Source of the DNA: an uncultured Caulobacterales bacterium
GTDB lineage: Bacteria > Pseudomonadota > Alphaproteobacteria > Caulobacterales > Maricaulaceae
Assembly: GCA_947503715.1 (NCBI GenBank)
Contig: CANNER010000002.1
Coordinates: 558,001 to 622,000 of the forward strand
DNA length: 64,000 nucleotides
Direction of reading: 5' to 3'
The notes under the pieces were generated by a model. It did no database searches and was not told the DNA's origin. It was given only the letters and a program-made list of their open reading frames with translations. Shown here piece by piece: positions 11,919-52,625 of the stretch (its first letter is position 1; each line of letters opens with the position of its first letter). The position numbers and the translations under genes are program-made.

Positions 11919-12461
11919 CTATGCGACCCATTTCCCGCTCTCATACCGTTCCAACACAATCTCCAAATCCGCCACCCAATCCGGCACATCTTTCCGATGT
12001 CTGTAATCCTCGACAATCCGGCGCGTGGCCCAGCCGGGTACGTGGATTTTGAACTTCTCCTGCAGCAGGTACTGCCCGCATTCGTTCAAATCCGCCTCGC
12101 AGCCAATCGCGTCCCACACCTCCGGTCCGGCTTTCATGACTTTCTGTATAATGCGAATGCCGCGTTCCATGAACCAAATCCCGACATGATTGTCATAGGG
12201 CTCATAGCCCTCGACATAGGTTTTGACGAATTCCCGGCGGACAAAACCCTTATCCATATATTCACACATTTTCAGCTCATCCAGCGGCGAAAGCGGCTTC
12301 AAATCCCGCTCCAGATTGAAAAATTCTTCGTCCTCTTCTTCGGGACGCTCCGCCTCCAAACGAAGCGCCTCCCGCTCGGCCAATGCCGCTTCGCGTTTGA
12401 GTTTCTCGCGGGCGGATTGAAGGCGAATTTGTTCGAGGGTGGAGGGTGTATTGCGGGGCAT
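11919..12461 (-). CDS. Uncharacterised charged protein with N-terminal coiled coil
   Basis: About 180 residues from MPRNTPSTLEQIRLQSAREK; the frame extends upstream to 12554 but would run into the adjoining repeat, so this ATG is preferred. Residues ~8-45 are a Lys/Glu/Arg/Ala-rich coiled coil, then comes an acidic patch (PEEEDEEFFN). The folded part has WFMERGIRIIQKVMKAG, PEVWDAIGCEADLNECGQY and GWATRRIVEDYRHRKDVPDW. No family recognised. The gene stands alone between two inverted copies of a palindromic repeat. Confidence 0.75.
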   Translation of the reverse strand: MPRNTPSTLEQIRLQSAREKLKREAALAEREALRLEAERPEEEDEEFFNLERDLKPLSPLDELKMCEYMDKGFVRREFVKTYVEGYEPYDNHVGIWFMERGIRIIQKVMKAGPEVWDAIGCEADLNECGQYLLQEKFKIHVPGWATRRIVEDYRHRKDVPDWVADLEIVLERYESGKWVA

Positions 12462-12503
12462 GGTGGGTCTTTCGATTGTGTGTAATATGAGATTAGCTTT
12501 CGA

Positions 12504-12622
12504 TGTCATCCCGCACGCAGGCAAAGCCGGAGATGCGGGACCTACCGTTTGCAAAACGTAACTGGCGTCGTGTAGACGGCAGGTCCCGCATCAGCGCCCT
12601 GACGGGCTTGTGCGGGATGACA
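12504..12622 (-). repeat. Palindromic intergenic repeat, copy B (inverted)
   Basis: A 119-bp element. Its reverse complement begins TGTCATCCCGCACAAGCCCG and continues GGGCGCTGATGCGGGACCTG, matching copy A at 11713-11821 nearly base for base at that end, with a diverged middle. Terminal TGTCATCCCGCA / TGCGGGATGACA is a perfect inverted repeat. It resembles MITE-like palindromic elements of alphaproteobacterial intergenic DNA. Confidence 0.78.
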
Positions 12623-13000
12623 GTTTGTTATGAAGACAAGCGTCATCGCTCACAGCCGATCCAGCGACTGCCACCAATTACGTTTGTCCGGTAAAAGCAG
12701 GACGTCCGCGTGGTCGGTCCCCGCGATGGAGACCAAATGAGTTACTGTTTTTCGCGAGGATCAGCCACGCGGCAGTGCGTTCGGAAAGCGGCCGTACTTG
12801 AATGCTGTCGTTCCAGACAGATCAGCTCGCACCTTCCGGCCCCCGGACCCGGAGACTAACCCGAACCCATAGGCACACCGTCCCCCGGTATCAGAGAAGA
12901 GGTCGACTCTCTCCTGTCCCATATCCGAAGGAACGAGTTTGAATATAAGGGGGTTTGGATAAGTGGGGATTATGTTTTTTATAAATGTGAGGTTTGGACG
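12623..13000. other. Intergenic stretch without convincing ORF
   Basis: About 378 bp between repeat B and the AT-rich PIN gene. It holds the structured block described at 12700-12773. Outside that block, CTGTC/GACAG can form another small hairpin, and the last ~50 bp before 13000 become AT-rich, which marks the edge of the AAA/PIN cassette. No tRNA, RNase P (GAGGAAAGTC) or tmRNA hallmark was found by eye. Confidence 0.5.
12700..12773 (-). ncRNA. Candidate structured RNA block, copy 1
   Basis: Read on the minus strand, the block starts GCCGCGTGGC and ends CCACGCGGACGTCC. An outer 8-bp helix (CCGCGTGG/CCACGCGG) encloses a purine-rich strand (CCTCGCGAAAAACAG...AACTC) and a hairpin GGTCTCC-ATCGC-GGGGACC directly before the closing strand. 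The same arrangement with compensatory base changes occurs at 52388-52464 on the plus strand. The pairing differences support selection on structure. No known RNA class recognised; transcript ends undefined. Confidence 0.45.
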
Positions 13001-51880: not shown

Positions 51881-51964
51881 GCTTCGTCCAACAGAATGCG
51901 GAAGTTTATCCGCGGTTAAGTCAGTCTCACTCTGGACGTGAAACTTCCCAATCCCTCACCTCCA

Positions 51965-52080
51965 TTTCCGTTTACCCCAGCGAAAGCTGGGGTCCAGAGC
52001 GGGGTTCGTTTTCAGGGCGTTACGGGACGGACGGCTCATTGACGCTCTGGACCCCAAATCAAGTTTGGGGTGAACGGAAT
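51965..52080. repeat. Double-hairpin palindromic repeat
   Basis: About 116 bp with terminal inverted repeats (TTCCGTTTACCCCA / TGGGGTGAACGGAA) and two inner hairpins, CCCCAGCGAAAGCTGGGG and CCCCAAATCAAGTTTGGGG, each followed or preceded by GTCCAGAGCG / CGCTCTGGAC. Design is like repeats A and B, but sequence is different, so it is a second intergenic repeat family. Confidence 0.75.
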
Positions 52081-52387
52081 ATGGGGAGAGGTTGCGTACC
52101 CAATCCCCGTTTAAGAACAATCGTATCCCCGCTTTTGCGCCCCGCGCTATGTTTCATCTGTTCCGATGAGATGGACAGGCAATCGATCGTGGTTTGTTGC
52201 TCATGGGACGGCGGGACTGAGCAATTGACTATCGAGGTCGATCTGTGCCGGGTCTTTCATGGCGAGCGTTGACCGCCGGGCCTCGAACGAAAGTTCCTCT
52301 CACGGGAGGACTAGGCGGAGGCGCGACTGCGGGACCCGGTGCATTTCGCGAACGCGAATTGCACGGACCGTTATGTCTACAACCGTC

Positions 52388-52464
52388 GCCGCGTGGCCTA
52401 GCCTCTGCGAAATAAAATAAAACTCTCGGTACTCCGGCAGGGGTGCCGGCCACGCGGGCGGTCC
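52388..52464 (+). ncRNA. Candidate structured RNA block, copy 2
   Basis: Plus-strand block starting GCCGCGTGGCC and closing GGCCACGCGGGCGGTCC. The outer helix CCGCGTGGCC/GGCCACGCGG has 10 pairs. The inner hairpin is GGTACTCC-GGCA-GGGGTGCC. Between them lies the conserved strand CCTCTGCGAAA...AAAACTC. Against copy 1 (12700-12773, minus strand) the single-stranded motif CCTC-GCGAAA-AACTC is kept while both helices vary in a paired fashion. No known class recognised. Confidence 0.5.
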
Positions 52465-52625
52465 ATCCTCCCCAAACTGAACACTCCGGCAGACCCCGCG
52501 ACGGGCTGCGAGCGCTTCAGCTTGCCTGACTGTCAGACATGCCCCCGAAAGATAATCCCCACAAAAAGCTGAATCATTTCAGGCGGAACGGTTGACTTGT
52601 CCTTCATTACGATTGCGCAAAAATC

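Follow-up and report, generated by a model that had tools for sequence, protein, structure and literature searches.

A previously undescribed family of multi-copy intergenic elements with a pseudoknotted core in Litorimonas

The 64,000-nucleotide stretch of Litorimonas DNA analysed here (the window) contains two copies of a new family of intergenic elements that fold into a 5′ helix, a pseudoknotted 3′ core, and a tail, whether in the form of RNA or of single-stranded DNA. Many Litorimonas species carry about 45 copies per genome, and the element occurs patchily in seven other sampled genera of the same taxonomic family. It is a structured RNA element of about 300–450 bases, its RNA nature, transcription, and function being inferred, and a literature search found no description of it. 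An initial annotation of the window had described two paired intergenic blocks as a candidate new RNA family. Beyond that description, the element is larger, pseudoknotted, and dispersed in the genome; its copies evolve in concert, and it has a link to a small protein.

Inspection of the sequence located both blocks as annotated, at 12706–12772 on the minus strand (copy 1) and 52389–52457 on the plus strand (copy 2). The outer helices, CCGCGTGG...CCACGCGG in copy 1 and CCGCGTGGCC...GGCCACGCGG in copy 2, comprise 8 and 10 base pairs, respectively, and the inner hairpin is present in each block. The blocks themselves are real, but as annotated they take in no more than the 3′ core of a larger element (Table 1): similarity among the aligned copies extends several hundred bases upstream of the core and, in many of them, about 60–80 bases downstream. 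Both blocks score far beyond chance. A covariance model of the core built from 20 cores, hereafter called R1, matched them in a whole-genome search with E-values of 4.4e-19 (copy 1) and 5.6e-16 (copy 2), both copies being members of its training set, and BLASTN with copy 1 alone matched other genomes at 6e-16.

Table 1. Features of the two copies in the window (positions within the 64,000-nucleotide stretch)
Feature	Position	Strand	Basis
Copy 1, full conserved RNA-like body, from 5′ helix through tail	12635..12934	-	aligned to copies in other genomes
Copy 1, conserved upstream box AAAACATAATCCCCACTTATCC, promoter-/operator-like by inference	12957..12978	-	ATCCCC box upstream of most copies
Copy 1, 5′ strands: 5′ helix 12925-12932, closing helix 12916-12920	12913..12934	-	covariation counts, 24 copies
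Copy 1, 3′ strand of 5′ helix, then GACGGTG	12876..12892	-	covariation
Copy 1, core: outer helix 12765-12772/12706-12713	12706..12772	-	covariation on 39 cores; BLASTN and model matches
Copy 1, core: pseudoknot strand 12753-12757; hairpin 12728-12734/12716-12722		-	covariation on 39 cores
Copy 1, tail GCAGTCGCTGGATCGGCTGTGAGCGATGACGCTTGTC	12635..12671	-	fits tail consensus of many copies
180-aa ORF MPRNTPSTLEQIRLQS..., downstream of copy 1	11919..12461	-	translation; other copies also precede similar ORFs
Copy 2, full conserved RNA-like body, from 5′ helix through tail	52158..52526	+	alignment of copies
Copy 2, stretch 91% shared with paralogue at G000:C1:201014	51887..52526	+	pairwise alignment; BLASTN
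Copy 2, conserved upstream box CAATCGTATCCCCGC...	52118..52139	+	box conserved upstream of most copies
Copy 2, 5′ strands of 5′ helix and closing helix (GATGGAC; partner GTCCATC 52461-52467)	52158..52179	+	covariation
Copy 2, 3′ strand of 5′ helix	52198..52214	+	covariation
Copy 2, core: outer helix 52389-52398/52448-52457	52389..52457	+	R1 match; covariation
Copy 2, core: pseudoknot 52403-52408/52437-52442; hairpin 52428-52435/52440-52447		+	covariation
Copy 2, tail CGGCAGACCCCGCGACGGGCTGCGAGCGCTTCAGCTTGCC	52487..52526	+	tail consensus
Possible remnant of MPR-type ORF MPPKDNPHKKLNHFRRNG, then stop	52539..52595	+	by-eye reading only

How is the core folded? The CCTC(T)GCG strand, previously called unpaired, pairs with the loop of the hairpin to form a pseudoknot (CTCTGC/GCAGGG in copy 2). 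The AACTC motif, called conserved in the same annotation, is not conserved across the wider family, unlike the run of A that follows the GCG strand. In 39 diverse cores, including those from other genera, 95% of the cells pair (outer helix, 99%; pseudoknot, 96%; hairpin, 85%), and two-sided changes occur at 13 of the 19 pairs, including every pair of the pseudoknot. The outer helix of the initial annotation shows strong covariation, as exemplified by one pair at which GC is replaced by AU in 17 sequences. The two-sided changed cells number 91, as compared to 32 in shuffles and at most 17 when the partners were slid. The slide control is favourable because the structures were drawn from the very alignments tested and each copy's sequence was assembled from three segments; we place more weight on how many two-sided changes there are. 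The covariation records compensatory changes beyond chance, but it cannot separate RNA from folded single-stranded DNA.

Upstream of the core, the 5′ helix formed by UCUUUCGGAC with GUUUGAGAGA shows two-sided changes at six of its eight pairs in 24 copies. The closing helix GGGAC/GUCCC, which reads GAUGGAC/GUCCAUC in copy 2, is 87% paired with a two-sided change at one pair only, and we consider it plausible but weakly supported. RNAalifold on the complete alignment told little about the 5′ half, where inserts vary, and extra hairpins lie within the body or tail of many copies. The body lacks coding sequence and ends in a tail, roughly GATGGGCTGYRAGCG....CGCWTGSC. In most copies it is preceded by an ATCCCC(G) box, inferred to be promoter- or operator-like, and an AAAACC.GTG..A..TTA stretch. 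Since the pseudoknot and a full-length hairpin share the bases just 3′ of the hairpin loop, the two may exchange, and this exchange would be a possible functional switch.

The covariance search that had been suggested as a check recovered many homologues with further compensatory changes. In the window's own Litorimonas genome (3.15 Mb), R1 finds 43 copies at E ≤ 0.01 and 46 matches at E ≤ 0.1, one of which is the reverse strand of copy 1. Among the congeners, it finds 22–53 copies in each of nine, 1–9 in three, and none in five; the counts across the genus are 53 in G008, 45 in G013, 31–40 in seven others listed, 22 in an incomplete genome, nine in G003, eight in G015, and one in G007. BLASTN with copy 1 detects 13 sites in its own genome, matches 10 of 17 congeners, and finds nothing in those genomes of other families that were sampled. 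In the NCBI taxonomy, Litorimonas belongs to Robiginitomaculaceae, Maricaulales. With stricter filters, which lose weak hits, the RNA was found in 24 of the 99 genomes sampled from the family, representing 8 of 19 genera, and no match was listed outside the family in an order-wide sample of 150 genomes. A DNA pattern of the core matched, among the matches listed, only genomes of uncultured Caulobacterales and of Litorimonas cladophorae; viral contigs gave no match to it. A single genome can carry several sequence types that differ considerably from one another. At G000:C1:629492-629692 (L092), two cores of like orientation are separated by about 140 bp, which suggests one element in or next to another.

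A small ORF starting with MPR or a similar sequence lies downstream of some copies, in Litorimonas and in other genera. Its product is marked by a KLxIExxKLxKLE helix and, in one subgroup, by PxYTxYEDLPPPxPED. In the own genome, about one copy in seven is followed by such an ORF (six copies by inspection, including copy 1). The structure model of the 180-aa ORF of copy 1 has a confident N-terminal helix and a low-confidence remainder, and this ORF is assigned to the MPR group by that helix only. A profile of the MPR subgroup matched 22 of the 99 family genomes, 16 of them among the 24 RNA-positive genomes (Fisher p=2.7e-8, uncorrected for shared ancestry), and most of the top-scoring hits are located immediately 3′ of, and on the same strand as, an RNA copy. 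Searches of the MPR ORFs against Pfam, PHROGs, and NCBIfam gave nothing convincing and no known domain; two weak PHROG hits (E about 1e-4) appear to reflect coiled-coil similarity.

Next, we consider how the copies are related to each other. Copy 2 is flanked by a biotin carboxylase gene and a 207-aa ORF. Seven other species have a copy at this site, also on that strand, while in G015 and G003 the site is empty. Other copy sites are likewise common to several species, beside the same gene. Nevertheless, copies at shared sites have a median identity of 71%, as compared to 73% for random between-genome pairs, while the best paralogue within the same genome reaches 86%. For 60 of 76 copies, the nearest neighbour lies in that copy's own genome, whereas shuffled labels predict 20. 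The positions are shared but the closest likeness is within each genome, and the copies therefore evolve in concert. A paralogue of copy 2 upstream of pyrB is 91% identical over about 630 bp, and in G003 four bodies are nearly identical and diverge just upstream. Gene conversion at old positions would be consistent with this pattern, as would repeated replacement.

Taking these observations together, we favour, with somewhat less than even confidence, a mobile or semi-domesticated RNA-encoding repeat that is homogenised by recombination and has an MPR partner; transcription, RNA–protein binding, and mobility are all inferred. Each copy would be a transcription unit with its own promoter-like box. 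The complete form would consist of the RNA and the small helical MPR protein, which may bind it, and the commoner RNA-only copies would be derivatives. Copies would spread and lodge mostly just upstream of host genes, reading towards them, and recombination or gene conversion would keep them alike within a genome. This proposal is favoured by the copy number and range, the covariation, the patchy occurrence, the concerted evolution, and the near-identical copies with different flanks. The adjacency and co-occurrence of the MPR ORF, the upstream box, the co-directional downstream gene, and the non-coding body also speak for it. Against it, many positions are common to species, which is not predicted for an active transposon, and the empty copy 2 sites in G015 and G003 could reflect loss of the element. 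Flank comparisons in search of MITE features gave approximate ends only, without a target duplication, terminal repeat, or proven insertion end, and we know of no mobilising enzyme for the element.

The same shared positions and within-genome homogenisation would be expected of a host multi-gene family of trans-acting, dose-dependent non-coding RNAs kept alike by gene conversion, as rRNA genes are. The homogenised stretch in G003, which stops near the body start, also suits such a family, as does the self-avoiding spacing of the R1-detected copies. In G000 these are more even than random (CV 0.54 versus 0.94; 0/5000 simulations), most clearly on contig C1 among the contigs C1–C5 examined (CV 0.24), while G013 and G008 show only a weak effect (p about 0.035 in each). 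However, five congeners have no detected copies and others only 1–9, so the element is not a genus-wide essential, and quite different sequence types coexist in one genome; we regard this explanation as rather unlikely. Alternatively, the box and RNA could be cis-acting leaders controlling the next downstream gene. By ORF-based gene guesses with the species pooled, the downstream neighbour is co-directional in 83 of 116 cases (72%; p=4e-6) and the upstream neighbour is unbiased, and the downstream neighbour is more often common to species than the upstream one (21 versus 2, with a distance limit that disfavours upstream genes). Yet 28% of the downstream neighbours are convergent, and the downstream genes appear functionally unrelated by eye, so that no common ligand or regulon is evident. 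A riboswitch or cis leader should stand regularly ahead of genes with related functions, which the copies do not, and control of this kind seems improbable to us. Both the trans-acting RNA family and the cis-acting leaders nevertheless remain live rivals of the mobile repeat.

Could the element instead be a known repeat type, such as REP/RAYT, an IS200-like hairpin, or a group II intron or retron RNA? Those systems are likewise multi-copy, structured, and intergenic, but this identification is very hard to sustain. The Y1 transposase (PF01797, Y1_Tnp) is absent from all 18 congeners, with control genomes positive, and REP/RAYT and IS200/IS605 mobilisation was therefore rejected. The reverse transcriptase domain PF00078 (RVT_1) occurs in 6 of 18 genomes but does not track copy number, being absent from G013 with its 45 copies and present in G001 with none; spread of a group II intron or retron by a resident reverse transcriptase is thus not supported. 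Rfam 15 gave no match at its gathering scores in the window or in seven copy-holding loci, and a relaxed search gave only weak miRNA and snoRNA hits, none credible. Together with the covariance search and the covariation, this supports the initial reading as a candidate new RNA family, with transcription inferred. No tRNA or tmRNA was found in the window, and searches for a phage, plasmid, or viral-contig origin gave no matches.

Several described systems bear partial likenesses. The HEARO or omega RNA of IscB-type elements is a structured RNA of a few hundred bases that occurs many times in a genome, frequently unaccompanied by its protein gene. The Litorimonas element resembles it in all these respects, but has no match to the Rfam HEARO model, and its partner, a small helical ORF located downstream, matches no IscB/TnpB-type family and has no recognised nuclease domain. 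BIME/REP, RIME, BOX, and Correia repeats are intergenic mosaic elements whose dozens of modular copies carry hairpin inserts, as here; in contrast, our element is longer, pseudoknotted, covarying, and protein-linked, in a genus without the Y1 transposase. OLE, ROOL, and GOLLD are large ornate RNAs of several hundred bases with obscure roles. The present element shares this size and obscurity, but differs in its copy number of about 45 per genome and its lack of an Rfam match.

One speculation, to which we would give only little weight, is a bacterial selfish ribonucleoprotein element of a new kind, in which the pseudoknotted RNA and the MPR protein would overwrite existing copies with the RNA body and also place it at new intergenic sites, needing neither a transposase nor a resident reverse transcriptase. 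This would yield dozens of homogenised, self-avoiding copies. It is unusual for a structured RNA at dozens of genomic sites to be absent from Rfam. Because the copies evolve in concert at shared positions and have a protein link, two questions become tractable: how bacterial non-coding repeats spread when no enzyme for this is obvious, and whether such repeats become host regulators. These questions are testable, since the cultivated Litorimonas cladophorae KCTC 23968 carries 45 copies.

Other sequences were observed around the copies. A palindromic repeat, GTCATCCCGCAC...GCGGGATGAC, lies at about 12492–12623 between copy 1 and the downstream ORF, and similar repeats flank other copies in the own genome. 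A second type of dispersed palindrome, CCCCAGCGAAAGCTGGGGTCCAGAGC..., lies at about 51940–52090, upstream of copy 2 and of other copies. Finally, a small ORF that appears GIY-YIG-like by eye is located just upstream of the copy at G000:C1 356726 (L088).
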